Shown here piece by piece: positions 2,088 through 19,151 of a stretch of 20,913 nucleotides of DNA (the first letter of the stretch is position 1; each line of letters begins with the position of its first letter). The notes beneath the pieces were generated by a model that was given only the letters and a program-made list of their open reading frames with translations, did not search any database and was not told the DNA's origin. The translations under genes were made by a program, and so were the position numbers. The DNA is from a virus, in the IMG/VR virus record IMGVR_UViG_3300044225_004257, positions 1 to 20,913 of that record; one strand, 5' to 3'.

Positions 2088-2490
2088 GGTGAGGTGCATT
2101 ACAAATGACTCGAAACATATCACAGCTTGGGCATCAGGTTATCTTGATGGAATGCAATGGGGCGCAAGCCAATGTTTTGGCTACGAGCTTGACGGTGAAC
2201 TCATCGGTGCGGTCATCTTCACAGAATACAGCGGAAATGACATGCAAGTCACCGTCGTCACAACAAATCCAATCTGGTGGACACGTCGCAACATCCGAGC
2301 CATGTACGACTACGTCTGGAACAAATGTGGTTGCGTGCGTCTTAGCGCACTCTGCAAAGAGTCAAACGCCAAATCGCAAAAACTTCTGCGAGGTCTTGGC
2401 TTTCAGGAGGAAGGCAGACTTCGTAAATACTTCAACCCAGAAGACGGAATTGTATTTGGTCAACTCCGTTCAGAATGCAGATGGATATAG
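2086..2490 (+). CDS. GNAT-fold acetyltransferase-like protein, T7 gp13-like position
   Basis: This 134-residue protein has the C-terminal GNAT signature NAKSQKLLRGLGFQEEGRLR (residues 94-113), the helix-strand that packs on acetyl-CoA. It is preceded by a strand ending VRLSALCKES and an earlier hairpin, GYELDGELIGAVIF (32-45). The usual acetyl-CoA pyrophosphate loop Q/RxxGxG/A is not evident where WWTRRNIRAMYDYVW stands, so activity is uncertain. Size and position, after tail genes and before long internal virion proteins, match T7 internal virion protein A (gp13), which is also small and GNAT-like. No Shine-Dalgarno sequence precedes the ATG, which lies 4 bases after the fibre stop, so translation probably depends on reinitiation. 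It may be a morphogenesis factor rather than an enzyme. Confidence 0.7.
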   Translation: MVRCITNDSKHITAWASGYLDGMQWGASQCFGYELDGELIGAVIFTEYSGNDMQVTVVTTNPIWWTRRNIRAMYDYVWNKCGCVRLSALCKESNAKSQKLLRGLGFQEEGRLRKYFNPEDGIVFGQLRSECRWI

Positions 2491-2499
2491 GAGCTAAGT

Positions 2500-4362
2500 A
2501 TGGGCAAGAGCAGACCAAGACGACCGCCAGATTATACACAGCAGAAGAACGACATCCGCTTGGCCACTGAGGCTGACTACGCAGCAAAGGCAGCGGATTA
2601 CAACACCGCAGTCGACAACTACAACACTGCGCTGTCTGGCTATCAAAACACACTTAGCGACATATCCGGCAATATTGGCGGCATGAGCATTGCTGACTTA
2701 TATGACGACCCGACCACATCAGAAAATGAGAACCAATATCGTGGGTTTATGGACACGCTATCTGGCCTTTCATCTAACTTGGGTGGCCTTTCTGTCGGCA
2801 TGGAAAGACCTGTGTTTGAAAGCACGGTCAACTCTCAATACGGGCCAGTCGGCATCACAAACATTCCTGACTTAACAAGCGCGAACACCCAGCTTTACGA
2901 CACCCTTCGTGGCGACCTGTCAAACAATCAAAGGCAACTGAATAACCTTCTCGCCGATCGTGAGTCTGAAGAGAGGCGCATCCGCGATTTCCGCTCAAAC
3001 CAGCTTACTAATCTGGGCGGATATAGCTCTCAAGCTGGCCAACTTGGCATTGCTGACCTTAATCAGATCAATCAGCTTGAACGTGACCTCGCCGCGCTCA
3101 ACACGGGCCGCAACGCTTTTTCATCTACAATCATGGATCAACTGTATCCAAGTGGCTTCTCTCAGGTTAATCAGCAGGCGACAGGCATTCAGAACACGCT
3201 TAATGACCTTCGCACGCAGCGGCAGGCCGAACTTGACCGTATCTCCGCCTTTGAGTCTGGCCTTCTTGGCCAAGCGGATACGTTCCGTGACACGCTAGGC
3301 GGCCTCACTATTGCAGATGACAGCGCGATTGCAGACGCAATTCGTGACATCGAGGCGCAACAACGCGCAGCCAGCCGCTTCTCATCTGAGCTTGGCTTCG
3401 ATTTTAGTCAAGAGACTGGTGAGCTTGGCGAGCTTCTTCGCGACGCACAAGGTCTGCAAACAGAACGTGAGCGGGAGCTTGCACGCATCGGGGCAGCACG
3501 CAGCCGCTTCCTCAACGAAAGCCGTGACGCAGAACGCGCAGCGGAAACAGGCAGCATTTACAGTGCCGCTGGCCTTGATGCTTTGGATGACCGAATCCGT
3601 GATCTCCGCACAGACATGGGTGGCTTCTCGTCCGCTCTCGACTTCGACTTCTCAGGCGGCACAGGCAACCTCTCAGACGCAGAGGCCGCACTTGCAAGTC
3701 TTCGTGAACGTCGTGCAGGCGAACTCGACAGCATCCTATCTGGCGTAACAACAGCGGGTGCAGGCATCGGAGATATCGACCTCTCAGACGAAGCAGCAAT
3801 TCGCGCACGGGCTACAGAACTAAACGACCTGAATCAGCGTCTGTCGCCATTCAGTGGCGGCAGGGTCAACGACATCCAGACGCAGCTTCGCGCTGGTCTC
3901 GATTCAGTTGACAGCCGTCTGGCTGAACTTCAGGCGCGTCGCGCAGAACTTGAAACGCAGGCAGCCGCACTGGCAGAGCAGGTTCGTAACCAGCAGTTCT
4001 TCGCCACAGATGACCTCACTGGATCGCAGGGCAGCTTCGACGCCCTGCAAGCAGAGATTGAACTGTTCGGCGCGCAGCAAGCTATGGACGAACTCGCACA
4101 AGCCGAGCAGCGTCTGCAAGGTGAGCGTCAGCGTCTGGAAGCAGACGCAGAAGCTGTGGCTCTCCGCGAAAATCAGGCTCAACAAGACCTCCTCGCAACG
4201 ATTGGTGCATCTGGCCTTCCTGAGTTCCAAGACTTTAATCAGGTAGACCCGATGACGCTGGAGCAATATCTCAATATTCTCGCAAACAGCGAAGAAGAAG
4301 AGTTTCCGCTCGGCATTTCGCCGACAGCGTTTAGCCAGAACCTCGGAGTGATAAGGGCATAA
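2500..4362 (+). CDS. Internal virion protein, repeat-rich coiled-coil protein (620 aa)
   Basis: I do not recognise a named family. The N-terminus is basic (MGKSRPRRPPDYTQQ). The rest is almost wholly alpha-helical, rich in Ala, Gln, Arg, Glu and Leu, with heptad-like runs such as DSRLAELQARRAELETQAAA. At least four degenerate units begin near residues 183, 268, 358 and 424; each opens G-L-x-I-A-D or similar. Two contain an FSS/SA-L-FDFS-TG-L element and several end in a helix R-x-x-EL-x-x-I. No signal peptide or membrane segment is seen. The ribosome site AGGAG lies 6 bases before the ATG and overlaps the preceding stop. Its place between a gp13-like gene and further long helical genes makes an ejected or inner-core virion protein likely; a scaffold or tape-measure-like role cannot be excluded. 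Confidence 0.65.
   Translation: MGKSRPRRPPDYTQQKNDIRLATEADYAAKAADYNTAVDNYNTALSGYQNTLSDISGNIGGMSIADLYDDPTTSENENQYRGFMDTLSGLSSNLGGLSVGMERPVFESTVNSQYGPVGITNIPDLTSANTQLYDTLRGDLSNNQRQLNNLLADRESEERRIRDFRSNQLTNLGGYSSQAGQLGIADLNQINQLERDLAALNTGRNAFSSTIMDQLYPSGFSQVNQQATGIQNTLNDLRTQRQAELDRISAFESGLLGQADTFRDTLGGLTIADDSAIADAIRDIEAQQRAASRFSSELGFDFSQETGELGELLRDAQGLQTERERELARIGAARSRFLNESRDAERAAETGSIYSAAGLDALDDRIRDLRTDMGGFSSALDFDFSGGTGNLSDAEAALASLRERRAGELDSILSGVTTAGAGIGDIDLSDEAAIRARATELNDLNQRLSPFSGGRVNDIQTQLRAGLDSVDSRLAELQARRAELETQAAALAEQVRNQQFFATDDLTGSQGSFDALQAEIELFGAQQAMDELAQAEQRLQGERQRLEADAEAVALRENQAQQDLLATIGASGLPEFQDFNQVDPMTLEQYLNILANSEEEEFPLGISPTAFSQNLGVIRA
3046..3975 (+). repeat. Degenerate helical repeats in the 620-aa virion protein
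   Basis: Units start near residues 183 (GIADLNQIN), 268 (GLTIADDSAIADAI), 358 (GLDALDDRIRDL) and 424 (GDIDLSDEAAIRA). Units two and three share FSSELGFDFS-x-ETGEL versus FSSALDFDFS-x-GTGNL, then a long helix with ERERELARI versus ERRAGELDSI. Unit length varies from about 66 to 90 residues, so this is a protein repeat and not a recent DNA duplication. Confidence 0.6.
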
Positions 4363-5913: not shown

Positions 5914-8034
5914 ATGTTTGATCCAGTAGGTTTCTTCCAAGGCTTCAACGAGCAACAAGAGACAGACGAGCGCAAAAGAATAGAGCTTGCACGAACGTTC
6001 CAAGAGCTTCGAGCTGCAAACCCCTACGCCACTGGCATGGAGCTTCAGTCTTACGTCCAGCAGCTTGGCGGCGGGCGCAATTTCCTGCGCGGCGGCATGC
6101 CGTCTGGCCAAGTCTTGGAAGAGATCGCTAGGGCAAACGCCTCGAACAAACAACGTGCGCTTGATGACCGTAACCGCACAATAGCAGCCGACAACATGAG
6201 CCTTGCTCTCAGCCGGGCAAACCTGACGAACCAGCTAAAAGACTCCGCAAAAGACGCTTTGCTAAACAGCGGCTTATCGTCTGAAAACACAGTCGATAAA
6301 AACAACAAACTTTTGAAAGCAGCAGAGGACAGCGTTATCGACATGTTTGGTGGTCAGGACACTTTAAAAAGTCTTGGCGTAAGTACAGATGGCCTGTTCA
6401 CTAACGAGCGTTATAATCGCCTTCGCATGGAGGAAGTCAGTAATTATTTGCCGCAAGCACTCGACCTCATCAAAGCGAACAAAGGCCAAATCGACGCGCT
6501 CACTTTGCAGAACACTTACGGCATCCCAGGAAGCATGGTTGACGGAGTTATCGACGCTGCCAAGAAGAAATACGCGCAAGAGCAGGCGACCTTTGAGTTC
6601 AACAACGAAACGGCACTCATCAACCGAGCGGTTGCGTTTATGAACGACGGCATGGACATTACAGACGCACTGACATCAATCAACGCTAATACAGAAGAAA
6701 GATTCGGCTTTACCCTGTCGGACGATATGAAGACCAAGATTAAGACTAATGCCATCCGTATTTTCAACCGTCGCGAACAAGAACAAAATCAAGCAGACAA
6801 CGACCGCATCAGCGGCTTAATGGACAATGCTATTGAGAAACTCCGTAACAATGTCGACTTCCGCACGGCTGTCTTTACAGGTGATCCTCAAACTATTGAG
6901 AACGCATTCAACAACGCTGTGGCTCGCGCTCCAGCAGATGTGCAAGAAAAGCTAAAAGAGCAAAAAGATTCTCTCATCGCGGAAATCTTAAACACCCTGC
7001 AATTCGAGCAGCTGGAACGTCTTGCCAAGGCAGCGGACGATTTTGATGCGACTATACCTGCAAAACAGGCAGACTTGGTTGCAAACAATGCAGATCAAGT
7101 TAATAACTATTTTGGCATTAAACGTAAAGATCAAGAGACCCCATATCGCAGGGACGCACTGTTGGCTGCCACTACTTTGGCAAAGCAATACCGCATGTCC
7201 CCATACGCAATTTCCCTTCTGTCAAACGCTTGGGATCAACAAGCGCGAGATCAGGGAATAGACCCAGAGAAAACTTCTGTTGGATTTGACGAGATGCTCG
7301 CGCTTGGTCAGTCCATTCTAGCGCGGGGCGGTGTCATGGGTCTTGATGAATTTGTGGATCAATCAGTTGGCCAAAGCGCACTTCGCGCAGGAGTTGTTGA
7401 AAACACCATGTCTGTTGAAAGCTGGACAGACGATACGTCTCAAGATATGGCAAACTCTATTACTGGGCTTGAAAACGCCGCTCGGATGGTGCTGGACTCA
7501 AGCGACCCAGATGACATTGAAATGGGGATCGCTGCCACTCGCAGGAAGTTTGAGAACGAACTTAGTATTTACAAAAACCGCATTGAGCAAGCCATTAGAT
7601 TTAGCACAGGTCTGAATCGCTGGGTGACGGCTGGTGAACAAACTCTAAACCCAGAAGACGCGAGACAGATGCTTACAGATTATCAGTCCCGTACTGAGAC
7701 CATGAACACAATTCTTCAAAAGGCTCAAGACAAGGCTGACACCATCAGAGCGCAGAATACGGCAAACACAAATCTGACGCCTCAAACCATTAAGGACAAC
7801 AGAAATCGGCTTGAACAAACTGCCAATCAGTACACTCGTCGTTCCCGCACACAAACAGGTCCAGACGCTAAGGCAATGAGAGAATTTGTAAACATACAAG
7901 GCGTTCTGGACACAATCGCGTCCAACGCGCAGATGTTCTCAGACTTCACAAACGACCCAGTTGGCTACATGAAAGTCCACAAGCTCCCCGATGGCACCGT
8001 CTGGTACGATCGCTGGAAGGCAAATAACCCATAG
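5914..8034 (+). CDS. Internal virion protein, T7 gp15-like position (706 aa)
   Basis: This is a soluble-looking, mainly helical protein with no signal peptide, membrane segment or catalytic motif that I can identify. It opens MFDPVGFFQGFNEQQETDER, a short hydrophobic cap followed by charged helices. Similar openings are common in internal core proteins of marine podoviruses. It ends GYMKVHKLPDGTVWYDRW, a compact aromatic tail. Size (706 aa) and place immediately before the giant protein match T7 gp15 (about 750 aa), which lines the ejection channel. A strong GGAGGA ribosome site lies 6 bases upstream of the ATG, 3 bases after the previous stop. The function is inferred from order, length and composition only. 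Confidence 0.6.
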   Translation: MFDPVGFFQGFNEQQETDERKRIELARTFQELRAANPYATGMELQSYVQQLGGGRNFLRGGMPSGQVLEEIARANASNKQRALDDRNRTIAADNMSLALSRANLTNQLKDSAKDALLNSGLSSENTVDKNNKLLKAAEDSVIDMFGGQDTLKSLGVSTDGLFTNERYNRLRMEEVSNYLPQALDLIKANKGQIDALTLQNTYGIPGSMVDGVIDAAKKKYAQEQATFEFNNETALINRAVAFMNDGMDITDALTSINANTEERFGFTLSDDMKTKIKTNAIRIFNRREQEQNQADNDRISGLMDNAIEKLRNNVDFRTAVFTGDPQTIENAFNNAVARAPADVQEKLKEQKDSLIAEILNTLQFEQLERLAKAADDFDATIPAKQADLVANNADQVNNYFGIKRKDQETPYRRDALLAATTLAKQYRMSPYAISLLSNAWDQQARDQGIDPEKTSVGFDEMLALGQSILARGGVMGLDEFVDQSVGQSALRAGVVENTMSVESWTDDTSQDMANSITGLENAARMVLDSSDPDDIEMGIAATRRKFENELSIYKNRIEQAIRFSTGLNRWVTAGEQTLNPEDARQMLTDYQSRTETMNTILQKAQDKADTIRAQNTANTNLTPQTIKDNRNRLEQTANQYTRRSRTQTGPDAKAMREFVNIQGVLDTIASNAQMFSDFTNDPVGYMKVHKLPDGTVWYDRWKANNP

Positions 8035-8054
8035 GGACGACCGCACTTATCTCG

Positions 8055-8089
8055 CTCCAGTAATCTGATGCCACATCGGATAACTGGAG
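8055..8089 (+). promoter_or_regulatory. Hairpin that occludes the ribosome binding site of the giant gene
   Basis: Bases 8055-8070 pair with 8074-8089 around a CCA loop. The stem has 16 positions with 14 Watson-Crick pairs, one U-G wobble (8066/8078) and one A-A mismatch (8062/8082). The Shine-Dalgarno GGAG at 8086-8089, 7 bases before the ATG at 8097, is fully paired with CTCC at 8055-8058. No T-run follows, so it does not look like a terminator. It lies in the largest gap of the late module, 62 bases. The structure suggests control of translation of the 3259-codon gene, by melting, RNase III processing or a bound protein; which of these applies is not visible. Confidence 0.65.
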
Positions 8090-8096
8090 TACCGAG

Positions 8097-11000
8097 ATGA
8101 AGTTTGAAAGCGCAACCTCTCGCTTTGATGGGTTCAACCCACTTGCAAAATCCCCTGAGCAAGCAACTGATTATTCTGCATCTATCGACCCGCAGAAAAT
8201 CCTCAAAGACCCCCGATTCCTGAAAGACCTCTATGCCCACTATCATGGGCAGGGAAAGTATTTCGGCAGTGACGAAGAGGTTATTGACGAGTTTTACGCA
8301 GACGCCACATGGCGCGACCTCAACACGGTCGGTGCAATCGGTGGCGCGATGGAGGCATACGGTCAGGGTTCTGAAGCCCGCCAACGCTCCAAGCGCATCG
8401 AAACCGTCTGGCGGCAACTCCCAGCTTTCTGGCAAAAAGGCGGACGCGGCTTCATGGAAGCGGCTCCAGACATTGCTAAATCAATCCTACTCGATCCAGT
8501 CAACCTTATCCCCGGCGTCGCCGCATACAAAGGTGCAGCCCAAGCAGGCCGTGCAGCGTATGTAGCTGGCAAAAGCGCACCTGTGGCACGCGGCACTCTT
8601 TCTGGGGTTAAGAGGGCGGCAATTTCTGAAGGAGCAATTTCTGGCGTTCAAGAAGGCGTGGTCAACACAGCCACACAGCTTCGCGATCAGCAACTTGGAT
8701 TACGCAATGACTTCAGCCTTGGCGAACTCGGAATTGCCACCGCAAAAGGTGCCGCCACGGGCGCGCTTGTTGGTGGTGGCATTGGTATTCCGTCTGGTAT
8801 AGCGGGCGCACGCAGCGGCATTGCAGACGCCGACAGTCTCATGGCTCGTGGTCTTACAAGAGAGGACTTGGCCGCAGAACTCGCCAGTCGTGGAGCAAGC
8901 GGTCTCGATGACCTTGTCCGTGGCACACGAAATGTAGATCAGTTCTCGCAGCCTGTGCCACAAGAAGAGCCTGCTGTTATTCCAGAGCCAGAGTTGTCCC
9001 CAGAAGAATCTTCTCTGGCAGCAACCCAACAGAACATTGATTCAGCACTCGACGTCGCAAGACGCCGCTACCAGCGCATGCTGGCAAGCGAAGCACACCC
9101 AGAGCGCATCGCAGACGCAGAAGAGGCAGTCAACGAGCTTGCTGTTATGCGCCGTGCTTGGGATCGCATGTCTCGCGAAGAAAGCGAAATCAATTCGCTT
9201 GAAGCATCGAACGACCCACGCAAAGCAGCAGAAGGCGCAACACGTCGCCGTAAGTTTGAGAACTATCGCGCCCGCTTCAACAACCTCATCGACGGTCTCG
9301 AACCAGCGGAAACTGTCCAGCAGTTCGAGGAAGCTCTCGACGCAGACGGACTTGGCCTGACACGGGGATCGGACGTCGCCCCTCCCTCGACGTCTGATGA
9401 AGCGGTGCCGAATACCGCGCAGCAGCAAGAAGAACCGGGGCGGGCAACGGAGCCTGCCCCGGAAGCTGCTGCTGAAAGTGAAATAGCTGCGAAAGTTCGT
9501 AGAGACATCGAGCTTTTTGGCCCCAACAGCCGCAATTCCTCTAGCTCTGAGAACGCCATTCGCCAGAACATGGGCGACGAAGCCGCAGACGAATATCGTC
9601 GTTTGTTTGACGCAGAGTCCCAGCGTCTCACTGATGAGTACATCGCAAGACGCAACCAAGAAAACGCCGCTGCAACAACAGCGGCTGACATCCCCTACAG
9701 GAATAAAGGGCAGAAGACAGAAATCAGCCGTCTATTCAACGAGCAGTACACAGAGGACATGTTTGCCACAGACTATGCTGCGGGCAAAATCCCTGTTGGC
9801 CGCGACGGCAAGCTGACACGAAAGAGCATTGCGGACATCAAGGCAAAGTCTGAGGTCGCCCGTGATACGCAGGCGTTCCAAGACGAGATGGCTAAGAAGC
9901 CCGCCCCGGCTGAAGAAGCACTGCCAGACGAGACACCTGAAGTCCCCAAGATTTCACAGCAACTTCGTGGACGCGCACTCGCTGCGGGCATTGATTGGCG
10001 TGACATTCCCCCTGTTGAAGGGGCGAAGTCTGGGCGCATCACCAGGGGCGCGGTCTCAAATGCAGAAAAAGCGAGAGAAGGCCAAGGTCCAGACGCATAC
10101 GCACAGCAAGTATCGAGAGAACTAGACGACGTTATTAATACCCTTGATGGCCTTGATGGCATGACACCAGAGCTTCTGGAAGAAATGCTCCCACTTCTGG
10201 CTCGCGATGCAAAGTACACTTCAGACGCAGAAGATATTATCGCGCTCTTCCGCCACGAGAAGAATCTGGCTGGTGATGCACCAGAAGTCCGCGCCAACAT
10301 GTCGGACGATGTGTTCAATCAGACTGAAACCAAAAAGATCAACCGTCTGAAAGCCCGTTACAAGAAAGAATACGGACTGACGGATCAGGTTGCAGAGTTC
10401 ATGGCACGCAACGATGTCAAAAAGCTCCGCGACGACCCATCCAAGCCGGGGACAACCACACCAGACAAAGGGCCACGCGGCTCCCAGACGTCAATCGACA
10501 AGAAGAAAGTCTTCGAGACCGCTGGCCGCAGCCGCACTGGCCGCATCCAGTCAATCCTCCGCCGTGGCCAGCGTATCTCCAAGGGCAGCGACTACACAGT
10601 TAGCTCTGGCTACGCTGTACGCAAAGGCGACTTCGCTCGCGAAGAAGCAATGTTGCAAGCGGCAAGCGGCAAAGGCCCAGACATCGTCCCATACGAAACC
10701 ACCGTGCCAGAGACAGCGATGTCCCCGAACGGCCAGATCGAAGTTGGGAAAGGCACAACGCTGTGGGCTGATGCAGTAACTGGCCGCGTATATACAAGCA
10801 TGGACTTTGCCATGCAGGTTCGTGGTGATGCGAAGCCTACTGCCCGCAAGACAGAAGACGCAAAGCCAGATGCAGGCGAGCAGCTTGAGAAGATGCTGCG
10901 CGACGCAAAAGAAAGCGGTGACATCGAGGGCTTCATCGAGGCCGTAAAAGGTATGAGCCGCAGTGGTGAGGAGCTTCCGGGCGTACCAGATAATCCAAGC

Positions 11001-14000
11001 GTCCAGACACCAGAGCAAACCATCCCTTTGTTCATCGGCAACAAGAAACTTATTGTCCGCTCTAAAACCGACCCCGCAGACATTCGCATGATCGGCGATA
11101 AGCAAATTCGAGAAGGTGGTGACATCAAGTCGATCATCGGGCAGAAAGCTGGCGAGCCAGATGCAGACCCGAAAAACTGGGAAGTCCGTTATGCCCCGAT
11201 GTCTTCTAAGGCGAACAAGCCTCGTGCCTTGCAGAAACTTTTCGACTCGCTCCCCGAAGAAGACTACAGCCGTGGAGAGGCTACCCGCGTAGATGCTGGC
11301 TTCCAAAACGCCAACAAGACGCCGATCAGTCAAAAAATATTTGAGAAGCGCAGCTTCAAACTAAGCCCAGAACAGGTCAAGCAACTTAGAGATATAGAAA
11401 AAGTAGTTTCGATCAAGGGCGTTGTTACCAACAATGCGAAGGGCGAGCCTACAATTTCCGGTGAACACCTTCTGGCATTGCATGGGCGTCTGCATGTGAA
11501 CCGCTGGGCGCGTCGATCTGGCAACGGTATCTATACAGTAGACACACAAGTCGAACACATTATTGCCATAGAGTCGATGATGCGGGACTTTGCCCCACAG
11601 GGCGTCGCCCGTCCGAATGCAACTCGTCAAGAAGCAATCGACGCTCTCGACCTTATCTTTGACGGACACTCCGCAGACGAGATCGCAGAAGCAAAGCGTC
11701 TTGTGACAAACCTTGGTGGCGACCCATCTGTCGGGCCTCGCTTCGAGGAGTCCACAGGCGGAGCGAATTACTACGAAGTCATGGGCAACCAAATCCGCCT
11801 TGACCCAGAAGTACGCATTGTTCCTAAAATTCAGAAGCTGAACCATGAGGTAGCACACTGGGGCTACTATAACATCCTGACAGCCGAAGACCGCATTGAC
11901 TTCTGGAACATCATTCGTGACAAGTACCCAGAGAATGGCAAGCTGCAAGACGCGGTGGTCAAGGACATTGAGGCAAATGTCCCACTTGACAAAGGCCGTG
12001 ATGGCCCTCGCAGGTTGGATACGAATGGCGCACACTCGCCGCAAGAATACTTCGCGCAACAGTTTGATCTGTGGGTGACTCGTAATCGCCCTGCGTCTTC
12101 CATTAACGAAGAGGCGTTCTGGCTTCGTATCTCTAACTACTTCAAGAACATTTACGAGCGTTACTTCAGCACATCGAAGATCGACCCTGCTCTGGAGCCA
12201 CTGTTCGCGAAGATGCTTCTTGACCCGCAAGAAGAGCGGGCGTTCGAGCTTGGCGTTGGTTCTGAACCAAAGAGCAAGGCTGGCGAACACATCCGCAAGC
12301 GTCTGATAGAACTCACACTCAGCAAGGAGATGCTTGAAGACGCGATTGCACGAGGCAGCACAGACGGTATTATTACCGCGTATGAAGACCTCGTGAACCT
12401 GCTTTTCCGCATGGTTCCAAACGAAAGGCTCGTGGCAAAGGAAGGGCCACAGGTTGTCTTTGGCCCATTCCAGCGTGGAGCGGGCAAGAAGGTTATCCGT
12501 AATCGTCAGCGCGACATTTCTGAGATGCTGTACGGCCTGAAAAATGCAGACGGCTCGTTCACAACTTCACAAGAAATGGGCATGAGCCTTCGCGGCGACC
12601 CAGAAGAAATCGCAGAAGTTCTTACCGACTTTTATTACAACGGATACGAGGGCAAGTTCGAGCCAGCAGATGGGCTGCCGGGTGCGATCAACGAGCGCAA
12701 CATTGGCAAGACGTCTATCAAGTCAATGTTCGACCAGATCGAGCGGCTGTTCCAGACGCACTATAATCGTGTTGAAAATTCTGTGGATAAAGTCCCCGGA
12801 TCGAAGCCCAAGTCTACGCGTAACGTCGAGCCGCCGACAAAAGAAGACGGCACGGTTGTCACTACAGACGTGGCACGCAAGGCAAGCAAAGCACGCAGCA
12901 CTCGTAATGAGCGCACAGACGCGCAGGCAACCGCAGACGCCAAGACGAAGCGCAAAAACCGAACTCGTCGTACAGACGCGGCCAAGCCTGTAGCAACCCC
13001 ACGCACTGCGGAGTCTCCGAAAAAGCTGTCTATGTCACAGCTTCGCACTCTGTATCGGGAATATCGCGGCACGGAATATGGAGATCAACTCGCACAAGAG
13101 ATTGTGGCAAAGGTGAAGTCCACTCCCGTGCCATCGAAAAAAGTGGCTGTTCCGCGTGAAATTTTCCAGCTCAATAACGCCGCACTCGAACAAGAATTGC
13201 TAGACGCACTTTATACTGGCGAGAAGGGCCGCGTTGACGCTGCATACTTTGAGCTGCAACGCCGTCAGGCCAACAAAAAAGCGAAGAAGAAAGGCGGCAA
13301 AATTATCACACCTCGTTTTGCCAAGACGCGTCTTGCTGTCAAAACGGAAATCAATGACAACATGGGCGTCATGCAGAGCGACGGCATCCCGCCGTCTGCA
13401 CGCGCATCAGTCCGCGAGATGCTTTCATTCATCACGCACCGTGATCCAGAGATCGAAACCACTAGCCGCACTCTAGCTTATCGTATGTTCAACATCCTAA
13501 ACCGCACTGGGCGCGGCACTCTCGAAGACAGCAATCGCATCACCACCGAGCAGATGTCTCGTCTGAGCTACGGTGACTATGTTCTTGAGGGGAACTCTGC
13601 GTTTGGAGACTACAAGTCACCAAACTTCAAGTCCTTTCGCAGCACAGTCCGCCAGATCGCTCAAAGAATCGCCAAAGGTAACGACGAGAAAGGCATGACC
13701 GAACTCGTCAAAATGATAATGCGGTCAGGGGCGATCCCGCAAGAGCGGGTAGATGTCATCGTCAGTGCGTACCGCTCCACATCTGAAGCCAACCAAAGGA
13801 AATATGGTGGCCAAATCATAGGCGACTACAGCGCACAGGCGCGGGAAGAGCTTGAGGCTGTAGATTGGCTCAGTGAAAGCATCATTGAATATATGGCCGA
13901 GCGCACCACGCGTGACGACATCCTCGAAAATGCGATCAACGCAGACAATCTGCAAAGCATCACCAACATCCGCATGCTTGATGACGCTATAGATGAAACA

Positions 14001-17000
14001 ATTGAATACGCGTCTTACATGGTGAACGGCCACGTTGGTAGCCCGACTGTCAAAGAGAACTTCCGCCGCGTATCCATGTATGGCGACATGTTCGAGGACA
14101 ACTCATCTCGTCCAATGGCAGGCACACTAGATGGCAAGTTTCTGACCCACCCAAGCTACGCCGCAGATTATGCCTATGACTCAGTGGCGTCGATGTCTGC
14201 CTTCCGCAGAGAGCGGATGAGGGAATTTGCCAAGGGTGGCATGGGCTTTGATGTTGCTTCTGACATGCCTGTGTTCTTCTATCATGGCACTCCGCACGGC
14301 TCTAAGCTGTCGAAGGCCAAAAACCCAGACGTGGCTTTGCAACCATCACAGCGCGGTCACTATGGCCCCGGAATCTACGTCACACGCAACCCGCACGTTG
14401 CCAGCCAAATCTATGGTGACAACCCAACAATGGAGTCTCTGTTTGGCTCTATTCAGGCGCGTGAGGACATCGACATTGATGAGAAAGATATGCTCATCAA
14501 ATTCGCTTACGAGCTTGTGCAGGCACGCAAGAGTATCAATCATCTTCGTCGAAACTATGCAGACCTGAACGCTGATGACGATGGGTTCCTATACCGCGAG
14601 ATCGCCAACGAAAAGCAAGTGACCCGTGATGAGATCGAAGAGCTTATCGAGGTAGAGCAGGCACTGATGAAAGCTCTTGAAGATGGTGGCGTCAACATGA
14701 ACGACGGCCTCGTCTTGCCACTGGTTATCCAGTTCAGGAACCCTGCTGACTTGCGAGAGACCGCTCACTACAACTCGAACAGCGAGTTCGTCAAAGCGAT
14801 TGCAGCGAAGATGAACGAAGACGAGACCATCCCCGCAGACGTCATCGAAGCGTTCGCAAACCCGGCGAGATACTCACGTTACCCCGGTGTGACTGGCATG
14901 ACTGGCAATGAGTTGTACGACACAATCATCAACGCCATGGCTAATCACGCTGGTCGGAGCCGCCCAGAAGCCCAAGCCGAATTTAACAATATGTTGCAAG
15001 ACATGGGTTATGACGGCCTCATCACCACCCAGCGCAACAGCTTGGACACTGGGGAAGAGGTTATCGGCGGCATTGATGGTGTCAAAGCGAGGACTTATGG
15101 CGCGTCCAGCGTAACGCATGACGCGGCCATTCTGTTTGACTCCAGCCAAGTGAAGCATGTGGACTCGAAAGAGTTTGATGCAGACCTGACCTCAATGTAC
15201 CACCTTGAGGAAGTGTCAAACGTGCCTCGCGGTGTGACAGGCGCGACTGTCGAGTCTCTCTCCACTGGCCGTCTTAACTCTGTAGATGATATCCCCGTCG
15301 GCGAGTTTGGCGAACTAGCAGAGACAGCAGGAACCGACCCGACATACACTGGCGCAATCATGTCAATGCTCAGACGCCGCCCTCTCACGGAGCAAGAAGA
15401 GGTGGCAGTAAGGTCGCGCGGGCCGATGGCATTCCTGCAATCCCAGTCTGACCGCATGCGTCGCATGGGTGCAAAGTGGCTGGGAGACACATACGAGAAG
15501 CACTTCCCAGACATGAACCAACGCTTTGCTGGTAAGTTCTTCCCCATCCGCCAAGCTCTGGCGAAATTGCCAGACGCAGACGGTGTGCTTCGCAGCTACG
15601 TTCGCAAGTCGACTGCTGGCGTCGGGCAAAAGCAACCACAGTCACATAGCAAAATCGTCCGCGCCCTCAGACGTGGAGACGGCAGCCGTCAAGAGCAGGC
15701 ACTTACCCCGCAAGAACGCGCAATCTACAACCAGATTCGCACAACTCTGGCAGGCGAGCGTCAGGAACTCATCGACCTTGGGTTCCATGTTGGTGATCGT
15801 GGCCCGAACTACTTGCCACAGGTCTGGAACGCAGAGAAAATCCACAAGAACAGAGACGCGGCTATCGAAAAGTTTAAGCAGTATTATGTCTACGAGCGCA
15901 TGTCGAATGGCATGGACTTCACAGACGAAGAGGCACTCGCCTTTGCTCGTGGCATTGTTATGACCCTTACAGAAGAAGGAGGAGACGGTGCATTTATCCC
16001 TGTTCGTGGAACAACTAAAAACCCAACTTTCGAGAACGCTGACTACTCTCGTGTCATCGAGCTTGAAAAATATCCAGAGATGCTGGAGCAACTTGAAGAG
16101 TTTCTTGAAGACGATCTTGAAGCCATACTTGTAAAGTATATCGAAGGAAGTTCACGCAGGATCACACATGCCCGTGAATTTGGCGTAAATTCTCACGCCG
16201 TTTCAGATTATCTCACAGTGGCGCAGGAAGGCGTGAACGGAATTGTACGTTTGTTGTCGTCGAACAAGGTCTTCAGACGTGACATCCAGAGCATGATGCC
16301 TGATGGACAGCGCGAAGAAGCCACTCTGGCCGACGTCATCAGGATGCCATTCGTCAATAATGAGCAAACAGCTATAGAATTTGTCAGCCGACTGATGGAC
16401 GCGCACGCACAAAGTGGCGCACCTGCTGCACGGCAACTTCTGTACAGTGTGGCTCCAATAGATAACGCCACTGGCCGCATGAACCAGACGTACAAGCGGC
16501 GTGCTGACGCAATCGTCCATGGCCTTGAAGACTTCCGTGGTATGGACGGACAGCTTTCGCCAGCCGACGAGGACTTCATCCAGAACGCAATGCGTATTGC
16601 GATGAAGAAGCCTCTAACAGCTTTTGGTGGCAAAGGTGTCGTAAACACGAGCCGCACTTTGCGTGCTGTGAATAACGTGACCTTGCTGGCCTTTACTACT
16701 TTGACGTCCCTCGGTGACTTGGGTCTGCCTATCATCAGGTCTGGCTCGTTTAAGTCTTGGGTGAAAGGCTTGCACAAGTGGAAGAGCGACCCAGAATACC
16801 GCGCCATGCTTCAGAACGTGGGCGTTGCTATGGAGAACATTCTCCATGAGCGCATGCTCCATCTATATGGCGCACCAAATGGCAAAGGCTCGCACGCATT
16901 CTTCAATGCTACGTTCCTCACACCGTGGACTGACATGAACCGCGAGATCGCTGGTGCAACCGCACACGAAGCCTTCATCGCCATGCAGAAGAAAGCCTTC

Positions 17001-17876
17001 AATCACTTCAAAGAAGGCACGCCATACGCGCAGCAACCTGCTGCGTACAAGACGGCTCACCGTTTCCTCAAGACTTATGGTCTGGAGGCGTTCTTGCCCG
17101 GAGCAGAACGTCAAAGTGAATCCCTTGGCAGCCGCCAAATGTTGGCTGAAGACGAGACTCTCCGCATGGCGATAATCCGCTTCGCAGATGATGCCATCTT
17201 CCAGCCCAATGCGGACGACGTCCCGATGTGGGGGCAAACACCAATCGGCGCACTGGTCTTCCAACTGAAGTCCTTCCCGCTGATGATGACACGTCTTGCA
17301 GGACACACCTTGAGGGAGGCAGACAGGGGCAACTTCAAGCCGCTGATGTACTTCGCAACGATTGGCCCTGCCTTCGGCATGGTTACGAACAGTGCCAAAG
17401 ACGTTGTCCAGCAGCGTGGCGGCGAAGACGAAAGGTCGCCAGAGCTTCGCAAGAGAAACTTTCTCAAGACCATCGGCTACGATGAAAAAATACATGGCAA
17501 TGAGAACGACTTCTTGGGCTGGTATCTTGAAGGTCTGATGGTCATGGGTGGTCTTGGCCTCCTTGGTGACGTGATCCACTCCACCGTGTCCCAAGCTGAC
17601 AATGGAGCATTCGGTCAGAACCGCATCGCATCGACCTTCCTTGGCCCAACATTTGGTCTTGGTATGGACAGCATCACCGTATTAGCAGGGGCGCAAGACG
17701 CGGCTTTCGGCGGCGACAATAGCAATGCTAAAGAACGTGCCGCAGTCAGGGAGCTTGCTAATCGCATCCCAGTGATCGGCGGGGTTCGCTCTGCCAAGGA
17801 GAACATTGTTGAAGCGGTGGCAGGAGAAGCCACTCGCGGGAACAAGAGAAATAGTGGAGGAGGGTTCTTTAACTAA
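8097..17876 (+). CDS. Giant internal virion / polyvalent protein with zincin and ADP-ribosyltransferase-like domains (3259 aa)
   Basis: The N-terminal ~110 residues (DPRFLKDLYAHYHG, EVIDEFYADATW) and Gly/Ala-rich hydrophobic stretches (~128-160, 213-240) are typical of large podoviral ejection proteins. Residues ~280-1000 are mostly charged helix and linker. A metallopeptidase motif LNHEVAHWGYY has H1250, E1251 and H1254; a likely third ligand is E1317 in QEYFAQQF. A Lys/Arg-rich linker covers ~1565-1643. An ADP-ribosyltransferase-like domain spans ~2060-2355 (FYHGTPHG with H2063, GPGIYVT, LPLVIQFRNP, YDGL, ILFDSSQVK). The next region contains NYLPQVWN (~2572). The C-terminal ~400 residues have hydrophobic segments (~2857-2877, 3081-3100, 3138-3160). 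Known relatives are T7 gp16-like ejected proteins and phage polyvalent proteins. Likely roles are channel formation plus protease and ADP-ribosylation activity in the host. No lytic transglycosylase motif was found. The gene ends in a TAATG overlap with the next. Confidence 0.8.
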   Translation: MKFESATSRFDGFNPLAKSPEQATDYSASIDPQKILKDPRFLKDLYAHYHGQGKYFGSDEEVIDEFYADATWRDLNTVGAIGGAMEAYGQGSEARQRSKRIETVWRQLPAFWQKGGRGFMEAAPDIAKSILLDPVNLIPGVAAYKGAAQAGRAAYVAGKSAPVARGTLSGVKRAAISEGAISGVQEGVVNTATQLRDQQLGLRNDFSLGELGIATAKGAATGALVGGGIGIPSGIAGARSGIADADSLMARGLTREDLAAELASRGASGLDDLVRGTRNVDQFSQPVPQEEPAVIPEPELSPEESSLAATQQNIDSALDVARRRYQRMLASEAHPERIADAEEAVNELAVMRRAWDRMSREESEINSLEASNDPRKAAEGATRRRKFENYRARFNNLIDGLEPAETVQQFEEALDADGLGLTRGSDVAPPSTSDEAVPNTAQQQEEPGRATEPAPEAAAESEIAAKVRRDIELFGPNSRNSSSSENAIRQNMGDEAADEYRRLFDAESQRLTDEYIARRNQENAAATTAADIPYRNKGQKTEISRLFNEQYTEDMFATDYAAGKIPVGRDGKLTRKSIADIKAKSEVARDTQAFQDEMAKKPAPAEEALPDETPEVPKISQQLRGRALAAGIDWRDIPPVEGAKSGRITRGAVSNAEKAREGQGPDAYAQQVSRELDDVINTLDGLDGMTPELLEEMLPLLARDAKYTSDAEDIIALFRHEKNLAGDAPEVRANMSDDVFNQTETKKINRLKARYKKEYGLTDQVAEFMARNDVKKLRDDPSKPGTTTPDKGPRGSQTSIDKKKVFETAGRSRTGRIQSILRRGQRISKGSDYTVSSGYAVRKGDFAREEAMLQAASGKGPDIVPYETTVPETAMSPNGQIEVGKGTTLWADAVTGRVYTSMDFAMQVRGDAKPTARKTEDAKPDAGEQLEKMLRDAKESGDIEGFIEAVKGMSRSGEELPGVPDNPSVQTPEQTIPLFIGNKKLIVRSKTDPADIRMIGDKQIREGGDIKSIIGQKAGEPDADPKNWEVRYAPMSSKANKPRALQKLFDSLPEEDYSRGEATRVDAGFQNANKTPISQKIFEKRSFKLSPEQVKQLRDIEKVVSIKGVVTNNAKGEPTISGEHLLALHGRLHVNRWARRSGNGIYTVDTQVEHIIAIESMMRDFAPQGVARPNATRQEAIDALDLIFDGHSADEIAEAKRLVTNLGGDPSVGPRFEESTGGANYYEVMGNQIRLDPEVRIVPKIQKLNHEVAHWGYYNILTAEDRIDFWNIIRDKYPENGKLQDAVVKDIEANVPLDKGRDGPRRLDTNGAHSPQEYFAQQFDLWVTRNRPASSINEEAFWLRISNYFKNIYERYFSTSKIDPALEPLFAKMLLDPQEERAFELGVGSEPKSKAGEHIRKRLIELTLSKEMLEDAIARGSTDGIITAYEDLVNLLFRMVPNERLVAKEGPQVVFGPFQRGAGKKVIRNRQRDISEMLYGLKNADGSFTTSQEMGMSLRGDPEEIAEVLTDFYYNGYEGKFEPADGLPGAINERNIGKTSIKSMFDQIERLFQTHYNRVENSVDKVPGSKPKSTRNVEPPTKEDGTVVTTDVARKASKARSTRNERTDAQATADAKTKRKNRTRRTDAAKPVATPRTAESPKKLSMSQLRTLYREYRGTEYGDQLAQEIVAKVKSTPVPSKKVAVPREIFQLNNAALEQELLDALYTGEKGRVDAAYFELQRRQANKKAKKKGGKIITPRFAKTRLAVKTEINDNMGVMQSDGIPPSARASVREMLSFITHRDPEIETTSRTLAYRMFNILNRTGRGTLEDSNRITTEQMSRLSYGDYVLEGNSAFGDYKSPNFKSFRSTVRQIAQRIAKGNDEKGMTELVKMIMRSGAIPQERVDVIVSAYRSTSEANQRKYGGQIIGDYSAQAREELEAVDWLSESIIEYMAERTTRDDILENAINADNLQSITNIRMLDDAIDETIEYASYMVNGHVGSPTVKENFRRVSMYGDMFEDNSSRPMAGTLDGKFLTHPSYAADYAYDSVASMSAFRRERMREFAKGGMGFDVASDMPVFFYHGTPHGSKLSKAKNPDVALQPSQRGHYGPGIYVTRNPHVASQIYGDNPTMESLFGSIQAREDIDIDEKDMLIKFAYELVQARKSINHLRRNYADLNADDDGFLYREIANEKQVTRDEIEELIEVEQALMKALEDGGVNMNDGLVLPLVIQFRNPADLRETAHYNSNSEFVKAIAAKMNEDETIPADVIEAFANPARYSRYPGVTGMTGNELYDTIINAMANHAGRSRPEAQAEFNNMLQDMGYDGLITTQRNSLDTGEEVIGGIDGVKARTYGASSVTHDAAILFDSSQVKHVDSKEFDADLTSMYHLEEVSNVPRGVTGATVESLSTGRLNSVDDIPVGEFGELAETAGTDPTYTGAIMSMLRRRPLTEQEEVAVRSRGPMAFLQSQSDRMRRMGAKWLGDTYEKHFPDMNQRFAGKFFPIRQALAKLPDADGVLRSYVRKSTAGVGQKQPQSHSKIVRALRRGDGSRQEQALTPQERAIYNQIRTTLAGERQELIDLGFHVGDRGPNYLPQVWNAEKIHKNRDAAIEKFKQYYVYERMSNGMDFTDEEALAFARGIVMTLTEEGGDGAFIPVRGTTKNPTFENADYSRVIELEKYPEMLEQLEEFLEDDLEAILVKYIEGSSRRITHAREFGVNSHAVSDYLTVAQEGVNGIVRLLSSNKVFRRDIQSMMPDGQREEATLADVIRMPFVNNEQTAIEFVSRLMDAHAQSGAPAARQLLYSVAPIDNATGRMNQTYKRRADAIVHGLEDFRGMDGQLSPADEDFIQNAMRIAMKKPLTAFGGKGVVNTSRTLRAVNNVTLLAFTTLTSLGDLGLPIIRSGSFKSWVKGLHKWKSDPEYRAMLQNVGVAMENILHERMLHLYGAPNGKGSHAFFNATFLTPWTDMNREIAGATAHEAFIAMQKKAFNHFKEGTPYAQQPAAYKTAHRFLKTYGLEAFLPGAERQSESLGSRQMLAEDETLRMAIIRFADDAIFQPNADDVPMWGQTPIGALVFQLKSFPLMMTRLAGHTLREADRGNFKPLMYFATIGPAFGMVTNSAKDVVQQRGGEDERSPELRKRNFLKTIGYDEKIHGNENDFLGWYLEGLMVMGGLGLLGDVIHSTVSQADNGAFGQNRIASTFLGPTFGLGMDSITVLAGAQDAAFGGDNSNAKERAAVRELANRIPVIGGVRSAKENIVEAVAGEATRGNKRNSGGGFFN
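11700..12110 (+). other. Zincin metallopeptidase domain within the giant protein
   Basis: HEVAH at residues 1250-1254 fits the HExxH zinc-binding and catalytic motif, in the setting IQKLNHEVAHWGYYNIL. It is preceded by a strand-like stretch NYYEVMGNQIRLDPEV (about 1222-1237). About 63 residues downstream, SPQEYFAQQFDLWV supplies E1317 as a probable third zinc ligand, in the arrangement of gluzincin-like phage peptidases. The domain could process virion proteins during assembly or cut host proteins after ejection. Boundaries are approximate. Confidence 0.65.
14265..15175 (+). other. ADP-ribosyltransferase-like (ART-PolyVal type) domain within the giant protein
   Basis: Landmarks occur in the order expected for ART folds of phage polyvalent proteins. 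They are VFFYHGTPHG (H2063), GHYGPGIYVTRNPHVA (G2090-Y2094), VLPLVIQFRNPADL (P2208, N2215), MGYDGLIT (Y2305) and AAILFDSSQVKHVDS (from 2345). E2320 or E2321, in LDTGEEVI, is the best candidate for the catalytic glutamate of an H-Y-E set. A charged helical insert of about 100 residues lies between the second and third landmarks. Substrate and activity are unknown. Confidence 0.65.
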
Positions 17877-18085
17877 TGTTTGCTGAAAGCGTACTGAAAT
17901 GGAAAATACTTCCGCGATTTATGATGTTTGTAATGACCATCATGTACATTCGCGTCATCGAGTGGTTCATAGACGTCCATGACTCTGGCCTTGTGACTGT
18001 CGAAGCCACCGCCCTAACCGCCACTGTTACTGGTGCCATGACTGGTGCTTTTGGCCTGTGGCTCGGATCGGAGAACAAGTCATGA
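17876..18085 (+). CDS. Small two-TM membrane protein of the lysis cassette
   Basis: This 69-residue protein has two predicted membrane segments, about 11-31 (ILPRFMMFVMTIMYIRVIEW) and about 43-64 (EATALTATVTGAMTGAFGLW), joined by a short loop with Asp and His. The start overlaps the giant gene's stop as TAATG, and a strong GGAGGAGGG lies about 11 bases upstream inside the end of that gene. Proteins of this shape are common just before the holin in marine podoviruses, where no function has been shown as far as I know. It could be a second holin, an antiholin or a pinholin-like partner. Its own stop overlaps the next start as ATGA, so the two are probably translationally coupled. Confidence 0.75.
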   Translation: MFAESVLKWKILPRFMMFVMTIMYIRVIEWFIDVHDSGLVTVEATALTATVTGAMTGAFGLWLGSENKS

Positions 18086-18462
18086 TTCAAGCACTACTTG
18101 CCCCAATCGCTGGTCTGGCTACTAGCTGGATCGAAGCGAAGACAACAAAGCAAACTGCTGAAGCTAAACTGAAGCTGACCGAAGCTGAAGCGAAGGCAAA
18201 AATTATGCTCTCAGAGAAGACGTCTGTCGCAGACTGGGAGCGCATCATGGCACAGGGTACACAGAACTCACTCAAAGACGAGTTTGTCACCGTGATCGTA
18301 ATGATCCCGGTCGTCTTGTGTTTCATACCCGGCATGGAAGAGACCGTTAAGAATGGCTTCGATCGTCTTGCGGAGTTGCCAGAGTGGTACACATGGCTCG
18401 TTTTCACAATCTGCACGGCAGCCGTTGGCATCCGTGGAGGCAAGCACTTCTTCAAGCGATAG
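18082..18462 (+). CDS. Holin, three-TM gene-transfer-agent type
   Basis: The protein of 126 residues has a weak hydrophobic N-terminal segment (1-17), a charged amphipathic helix rich in Lys, Ala and Glu (20-46), then ADWERIMAQGTQNSLKDEF. Two clear membrane segments follow at about 67-85 (VTVIVMIPVVLCFIPG) and 103-118 (YTWLVFTICTAAVGIRGG), with a basic C-terminus. This matches the Holin_3TMs/GTA holin family, whose members open the inner membrane so that endolysin can reach the cell wall. I chose the ATG at 18082, overlapping the previous stop as ATGA and preceded by GGAGA, over an in-frame GTG at 18058 inside the upstream gene. The family is well represented in alphaproteobacterial phages and gene transfer agents, which bears weakly on the host. 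Confidence 0.8.
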   Translation: MIQALLAPIAGLATSWIEAKTTKQTAEAKLKLTEAEAKAKIMLSEKTSVADWERIMAQGTQNSLKDEFVTVIVMIPVVLCFIPGMEETVKNGFDRLAELPEWYTWLVFTICTAAVGIRGGKHFFKR

Positions 18463-18470
18463 GATAGATT

Positions 18471-18923
18471 ATGGAGTTCAAACTTTCCCAACGGTCATTG
18501 TCACGTCTTGAGGGGCTAGAGCCTGAATTAATTGGTGTCGTGAACCGTGCTATTGAATTAACAAATGTGGATTTTGGTGTGACATGCGGAATAAGATCAA
18601 AGGCGGAGCAAGAAAAGCTGGTTGCATCTGGTGCATCCCAGACGATGAGGTCGAAGCATTTAGAGGGCAGAGCGGTGGACGTCGTGGCATACATTGGGCC
18701 GAGGATCACATGGGAACTCAACGTGTACGACAACATTGCAGATGCGTTCAAAAAGGCCGCAGACGAACTCGACGTTCCTCTTCGTTGGGGCGCGGCGTGG
18801 AACGTGTATGATCTGCGCGGGTGGGACAATACAATGGAAGAAGCGATGATGCACTATATTGACGCGCGAAGGTCAGAAGGTCGGCGTCCTTTCATTGACG
18901 CACCGCACTTTGAACTGACATGA
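18471..18923 (+). CDS. Endolysin, M15/VanY-type peptidoglycan peptidase
   Basis: This 150-residue, single-domain protein has the M15 zinc-peptidase signature. SKHLEGRAVDVVAY gives H63 and D70, and the C-terminal FIDAPHFEL gives H146, which together bind zinc; D143 or E148 is a likely catalytic residue. The earlier strand GVTCGIRSKAEQEKLVASG with R42 is the usual substrate-binding region. RWGAAWNVYDLRGWDN resembles the W-G-G-W turn of phage L-alanyl-D-glutamate peptidases such as the T5 endolysin. No signal peptide or cell-wall-binding domain is present, so it should be released through the neighbouring holin. AGGA lies 6 bases before the ATG, overlapping the holin stop. The exact bond cut cannot be settled from motifs. 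Confidence 0.88.
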   Translation: MEFKLSQRSLSRLEGLEPELIGVVNRAIELTNVDFGVTCGIRSKAEQEKLVASGASQTMRSKHLEGRAVDVVAYIGPRITWELNVYDNIADAFKKAADELDVPLRWGAAWNVYDLRGWDNTMEEAMMHYIDARRSEGRRPFIDAPHFELT

Positions 18924-19151
18924 ATGGTTCACGTCTTTCTGTTACTTGTTTTTGTTGGAAGCGGCGAAGCTCAGAAACTCGTCAGTGGTGATATGTATTT
19001 TTGGGACGTGAATAAGTGTAATTATTTCGCGTCTAAATTGGTTAAAAGATACGGAAACTATAAATATAAATACCGTTTGGACAAGCAACACAAATCAACA
19101 GCTTACTGTGTTCCTAAGTACATTGAACAGAACTCAGTCCGCATCTACTAA
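18924..19151 (+). CDS. Small exported protein with signal peptide and two cysteines
   Basis: The first ~17 residues, MVHVFLLLVFVGSGEAQ, form a hydrophobic core ending in a likely signal peptidase I site near GEA. The mature part (~58 residues) is basic and aromatic with repeated Tyr and Lys (YGNYKYKYRLDKQHK) and contains just two cysteines, C32 and C62, that could form a periplasmic disulphide. There is no lipobox, so it does not look like an outer spanin. The ATG directly follows the endolysin TGA as TGAATG and has no Shine-Dalgarno, which suggests coupled translation. Similar short exported proteins with an MYF-D-N-C-YFA core seem common in marine phages; their role is unknown. Envelope disruption or superinfection exclusion are possible. 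Its 3' end overlaps the convergent gene by 18 bases. Confidence 0.7.
   Translation: MVHVFLLLVFVGSGEAQKLVSGDMYFWDVNKCNYFASKLVKRYGNYKYKYRLDKQHKSTAYCVPKYIEQNSVRIY

Follow-up and report, generated by a model that had tools for sequence, protein, structure and literature searches.

A giant cysteine-free phage protein, probably ejected, that combines zincin and ADP-ribosyltransferase domains with a T7 gp16-type C-terminal module

Polyvalent proteins of phages join several unrelated enzymatic domains in one chain. Members with both MPTase and ADP-ribosyltransferase (ART) domains were described by Iyer et al. in 2017, one of them from a roseopodovirus (PMC5512222). The peptidases of these proteins form their own clades and share a layout in which three strands are followed by an HExxH helix and a helix bearing a Glu, and the active site of ART-PolyVal is H-Y-D, carried on strands 1, 2 and 5 (PMC5512222). 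The absence of cysteine in the virion RNA polymerases (vRNAPs) of N4-type phages has been linked to passage through the tail and the periplasm (PMC2784036, PMC3715699). Among marine phages, Roseobacter phage CRP-810 defines a family of 252 genomes, and the giant protein considered here is not mentioned in the accessible parts of the paper that reported it (PMC11288001).

The window, that is, the whole 20.9-kb stretch of a virus record that was analysed, is nearly half filled by a single uninterrupted frame of 3259 residues (Table 1), as the sequence-only reading had stated. An independent contig (L003) holds 2775 residues of this giant frame; the regions that were compared are 99-100% identical, and HEVAHW, TELVK and YHGT recur in it. 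Because these are repeated independently, the motifs present or missing in the window are not assembly accidents. The Pfam scan of the whole protein gave no match, and scans of segments were needed. The results placed a zincin, an ART domain and a T7 gp16-type ejection protein module in one polypeptide, in agreement with the earlier proposal, and its link to polyvalent proteins was also supported. The protein belongs to a known class (Iyer 2017), of which the combination found here is a large, almost unannotated variant. The novelty of the combination had been overestimated, for a zincin together with an ART had been described in 2017 in a giant ejected protein of a podovirus, the vRNAP of Roseovarius Plymouth podovirus 1 (RPP1) (PMC5512222). 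Three features seem to be new, namely a T7 gp16-type scaffold that lacks a transglycosylase, a pair of zincins of which one has been inactivated repeatedly, and the reach of a family of giant proteins concealed by annotations that split them or call them hypothetical. A literature search found no description of this family.

Table 1. Positions of the giant gene, its modules and motifs, and neighbouring genes in the window.
Feature	Residues or size	Coordinates	Strand	Basis or remark
Three cysteine-free genes, candidate co-ejected partners	620, 514, 706 aa	2500..8034	+	0 Cys each; positions of T7 gp14/gp15
Giant ejection/polyvalent protein gene		8097..17876	+	open throughout; no in-frame cysteine codon; uninterrupted in L003 too
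N-terminal module: DPxNLIPG and Gly/Ala-rich, membrane-active-looking helices	25-253	8169..8855	+	alignment
Middle module	803-1036	10503..11204	+	conserved, in most relatives; without Pfam match
Zincin 1, intact active site	1114-1399	11436..12293	+	ligands kept in 60/61; model
HEVAH motif, zincin 1	1250-1254	11844..11858	+	sequence
Third zinc ligand, zincin 1, in SPQE-YFAQQF	E1317	12045..12047	+	alignment
Zincin 2, degenerate here	1647-1999	13035..14093	+	profile match to zincin 1; tree states
TELVK, at HExxH site of relatives	1868-1872	13698..13712	+	alignment
Asp where relatives have the Glu ligand	D1923	13863-13865	+	alignment
ART domain (ART-PolyVal type), helical insert ~2110-2200	2036-2369	14202..15203	+	Pfam, model
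ART triad (YHGT)	H2063	14283..14285	+	alignment
ART triad (GIY, in GPGIYVT)	Y2094	14376..14378	+	alignment
Probable third ART residue (GYDG, in GYDGLI), just before model strand	D2306	15012..15014	+	alignment, model
C-terminal T7 gp16-type internal virion protein module	2426-3249	15372..17843	+	PHROGs, fold matches
Cysteine-bearing gene	134 aa	18058-18462		bounds module downstream, with endolysin gene
Endolysin gene		18471..18923	+	PHROG_465 endolysin, E 1.5e-54

The distribution of the protein was explored with a tblastn search of its last 2159 residues against 50,697 phage records, in which CRP-810 was the one full-length relative (99% covered, 44% identity). Viral contigs were then scanned three times, with the alignments of the C-terminal module, the zincin and the ART as queries, which yielded more than 100 further loci. 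With profiles made from them, 76 complete single-ORF relatives were delimited, or 38 once near-copies had been removed, with lengths of 2931-4059 residues (median 3255). The modules of these 38 follow the order N-terminal, zincin 1, zincin 2, ART, C-terminal. The order of the N-terminal module, zincin 1 and the C-terminal module was constant; the ART was present in 37 of 38 and the zincin-2 region in 36 of 38, and all 35 relatives having both carry the ART after zincin 2 and before the C-terminal module. No extra enzymes were found by Pfam in the inserts of the longer relatives. A single giant ORF is the norm in the family and the split gene of CRP-810 is not. The relatives derive from CRP-810-type marine phages. 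The giant gene is likewise split at L009/L088 (one contig) and L106. Another relative, split into two ORFs (L165, 4103-12658 and 674-4099), lies on a Neomarinimicrobiota MAG contig, which may be a phage contig binned with that genome. A distant relative of 3859 residues with two HExxH motifs and one cysteine (MW202828.1, locus 7471-19050) is annotated as a reticulocyte binding/rhoptry protein, a misleading label. The same C-terminal module was seen in a 2050-residue hypothetical protein of Aeromonas phage phiA008 (OL774570.1, locus 7765-13917), which has one zincin (HELGH); an ART was looked for in it and was not found.

The kinship with T7 gp16, which had been proposed from the position of the gene, was borne out by homology and not by gene order alone. 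Residues 2791-3225 aligned with positions 773-1208 of the PHROG_342 profile (E 7.5e-17, with the C-terminal 836 residues as query), the label of which is internal virion protein with endolysin domain, and the C-terminal module also matched PHROG_684 (E 3.8e-19). T7 gp16 itself spans the whole of PHROG_342 (full length, 1355 bits, E 0); the part of this family matched by the window protein is therefore its C-terminal half. A direct comparison of the C-terminal module with T7 gp16 gave a weak, colinear match, and the N-terminal modules of two relatives matched PHROG_342 with a best E of 7e-7. A lytic transglycosylase had no match in the Pfam and PHROGs scans and no motif in the N-terminal module. 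Because this end was not found, the protein is described as a gp16-type C-terminal homologue and not as a full gp16 orthologue. The structure of the ART and C-terminal part was modelled over 1200 residues (mean pLDDT 79). Among viral predicted structures, this model matched LPD-containing phage proteins (E 1e-49) and internal virion protein D or core proteins of the podoviruses BB8, LKA1, RSB3, VP2 and others (E 1e-8 to 1e-5). In the PDB, its best phage matches were the cyanophage A4 pre-ejectosome (probability 0.93) and phage E1004 core proteins (0.77), both with weak E values of 0.03-0.06.

The complete absence of cysteine in the window protein had been missed in the sequence-only reading. 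Only three cysteines occur in the 126,435 residues of the 38 non-redundant relatives, 35 of which have none, and none occurs in T7 gp15, T7 gp16, the RPP1 vRNAP or the phiA008 relative. The cysteine content of other long ORFs at these loci is 0.75%, in a set that may include spurious frames; the CRP-810 structural proteins counted have about 0.2-0.3%, which would still predict some 300. The missing cysteine was taken as independent support for ejection. From the homology to the gp16 family, the core-protein fold matches, the position of the gene and this near-absence of cysteine, we infer that the protein is delivered into the host, as had been suggested. The three genes upstream are, by position, candidates for co-ejected partners in the places of T7 gp14 and gp15. 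Together with the giant gene they encode 5099 consecutive residues without cysteine, and the gene next upstream was also cysteine-free in most of the 20 relatives checked. In the PHROG scan, the two nearest upstream genes had no match and the 620-residue gene had weak off-topic matches only; no match of the upstream genes to T7 gp14 or gp15 was obtained. Further upstream, a GNAT-type acetyltransferase gene (2086-2490; PHROG_4470, E 1.4e-31) directly follows the tail fibre gene, as in CRP-810, and a similar N-acetyltransferase label stands near the giant gene of MW202828.

The sequence-only reading had located an HEVAH motif with a downstream Glu ligand between residues 1200 and 1330, and both lie there (Table 1). 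An HExxH motif was expected about 0.05 times per shuffled protein of the same composition (91 of 2000 shuffles). H1250, E1251, H1254 and E1317 were kept in 60 of 61 non-redundant relatives, which are about 28-38% identical to the window protein, and the motif is therefore beyond chance. The zincin-containing model (mean pLDDT 83) had, for zincin 1, three short strands (131-134, 141-143 and 148-151 in model numbering), then the HExxH helix (160-175) and the Glu-bearing helix (231-245), the layout of the polyvalent-protein peptidases. Structure prediction, which had been named as a check on the zincin, thus gave the expected elements; the Foldseek search of the PDB gave no zincin, long helical proteins dominating its results, and used the whole multi-domain model of residues 1085-2010 (926 residues). 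A search of the PDB with the zincin profile returned only Ste24p (E 0.69), over the HExxH part. Weak peptidase matches were all that Pfam gave, in a few relatives, which agrees with the own-clade statement of Iyer et al. On sequence grounds, zincin 1 is a probable zinc protease.

The domain anatomy read earlier was right as to the zincin and the ART; a single zincin had been assumed, and a second, degenerate one was missed. The profiles of zincin 1 and intact zincin 2 were aligned by hhalign with a probability of 93.8% (E 1.8e-7) and with motifs and ligands in register, whereas control pairs of unrelated domains gave 0.5% and 1.1%. The HExxH and EEWF(A/S)E motifs of zincin 2 were intact in 30 of 57 non-redundant relatives, including CRP-810. 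The ligands were gone in the other 27, the window among them, while the remaining domain was kept, with a high-confidence model. The Glu was present in all 30 with an intact HExxH and in 9 of the 27 that had lost it. Judging from these residues, zincin 2 is catalytically dead in the window protein. In the tree of the C-terminal module, the zincin-2 state changes at least eight times, in directions (loss or gain) that the tree alone cannot tell apart, and the window falls in a fully supported clade of 15 members, all without the motif. Both zincin regions were found in 123 proteins, near-copies included; 66 had both motifs, 56 had only that of zincin 1, one had only that of zincin 2 and none had neither. 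The sole relative without the zincin 1 active site (SSER; L046, 2621-12535) has an intact zincin 2. A tentative reading, rather unlikely in our estimate, is that the giant protein needs one working zincin and not two, the copies being interchangeable and one repeatedly inactivated but never both. If so, a protease step, most simply a self-cleavage freeing the ART after delivery, would be obligatory in genome entry or takeover.

The ART landmarks had been placed some 800 residues beyond HEVAH, and the ART domain was found about 810 residues on. Its matches to Pfam ART-PolyVal (PF18760) scored 28.2-29.0 bits, against a cut-off of 31.2, with E 2.1e-6 to 3.6e-6. The same family was matched by 35 of 49 relatives at E 0.01 or better (best 1.3e-11), and by its sequence the domain of the window appears to be a member or near-member. 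The roughly 100 residues between Y2094 and the next strand form long helices, and the Pfam score is depressed because of this insert. In the model, H2063 and Y2094 lie on predicted strands and D2306 directly precedes one; its assignment as the strand-5 Asp is our own, after the published H-Y-D, and is probable. Position 2342, before the ILF strand, was considered as the third residue and rejected, since relatives carry E, D, K, T, Q or M there but keep D2306 near-constant. The triad was kept in 51 of 64 relatives and broken in 13, or 12-13 given that one match counted ends before the third residue; the ART is thus not needed everywhere. No true match of significance came from profile searches of the PDB, whether the query was the ART, the C-terminal module or the zincin; what they returned included coiled-coil matches to the ART insert and weak PARP matches (tankyrase, E ~0.5; ZAP, E 0.29). 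The sequence suggests that the domain probably attaches ADP-ribose to host proteins.

Taken together, the protein is probably a giant internal virion protein that is ejected, with gp16-type scaffold ends and a central polyvalent effector cassette in which zincin 1 is live and the ART modifies a host protein. It would be packaged in the head as one chain and be ejected alongside T7-like partners, entering the host together with the DNA or before it. The inner-membrane section of the DNA conduit may be built by the C-terminal module and, with less certainty, the N-terminal one, and the centre of the chain would act as the effector cassette, either in the cytoplasm or at the membrane. Zincin 1 would be an active zinc peptidase, its likeliest substrate being its own chain, cut during assembly or after delivery to free the ART part; zincin 2 would be a former second peptidase, retained here as scaffold. 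By analogy with T4 Alt and the polyvalent proteins, the ART would, in the first minutes after infection begins, use NAD+ as donor to ADP-ribosylate a host protein. The vRNAP of N4 is packaged unprocessed despite its zincin (PMC5512222), so an obligatory self-cleavage before packaging is disfavoured. The same uncut packaging also speaks for the alternative that zincin 1 cuts a host protein, as an effector degrading it after delivery and not as a self-processing enzyme. Polymorphic toxin systems use zincins as effectors, and the point is left open by Iyer et al. (PMC5512222). This alternative is possible, though we do not lean towards it; it lacks a known host target, self-release suits a giant chain of unlike domains better, and the zincin-bearing P1 DdrB undergoes processing before it is packaged (PMC5512222).

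A purely structural ejection protein was also considered, in which the zincins and the ART would be relics of a polyvalent ancestor that serve folding or the conduit without catalysis. The loss of the zincin 2 ligands with the rest of the domain kept, and the relatives with a broken ART triad, would fit such a protein. We consider it improbable, for the four ligand and catalytic residues of zincin 1 are nearly invariant at low overall identity, the one exception keeps zincin 2, and most relatives keep H-Y-D. An N4-like vRNAP with accessory domains, which would share its size, lack of cysteine, zincin and ART with the RPP1 vRNAP, is very improbable and was rejected, because no T7-like RNA polymerase domain was found in Pfam scans of any segment, no family profile matches the RPP1 vRNAP convincingly or aligns it, and the family of the C-terminal module is that of T7 gp16.

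The protein preferred here, an ejected carrier of a polyvalent cassette, ties the class of predicted polyvalent effectors described in 2017 to a T7 gp16-type ejection scaffold, and lack of cysteine provides an easy way to screen sequences for ejected proteins. T4 Alt, an ART packaged in the head and ejected, is a functional model, but it is a separate protein of the R-S-E clade and is not polyvalent. T7 gp16 (internal virion protein D) shares the homologous C-terminal half, the genomic position and the lack of cysteine; unlike the window protein, it has 1318 residues and an N-terminal transglycosylase and is without zincin or ART. The published polyvalent proteins (PMC5512222) are likewise giant phage proteins with a zincin-like peptidase and ART-PolyVal, predicted to be injected early. 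By comparison, the protein here has the T7 gp16-type scaffold, two zincins of which one is repeatedly inactivated, and an ART with a long helical insert, and no RNA polymerase, methylase or helicase was detected in it. The RPP1 vRNAP (CBX87992) is similar in its 3760 cysteine-free residues, two HExxH motifs and YHGT ART, and RPP1 infects a Roseobacter relative; the vRNAP differs in belonging to the Schitoviridae and in its N4-type RNA polymerase. A further close system is CRP-810 (OR671924, PMC11288001), a cultured member, on Roseobacter FZCC0198, of a globally distributed family of marine phages. Its full-length homologue is 36-59% identical, has the same domain order and is colinear with gp36, gp35 and gp34. 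Unlike in the window, zincin 2 is intact (HEIGH), and in the CRP-810 record the gene is broken twice, giving three ORFs, by a frameshift and, at the second break, a tandem duplication of 31 nt (OR671924.1 positions 24,061-24,089 and 30,065-30,111). The published annotation, with gp36 as internal virion protein D and gp35 and gp34 as hypothetical, hides the giant protein as fragments. An isolate exists and its homologue has both zincin motifs, so the delivery and host action of such domains could be tested in CRP-810.
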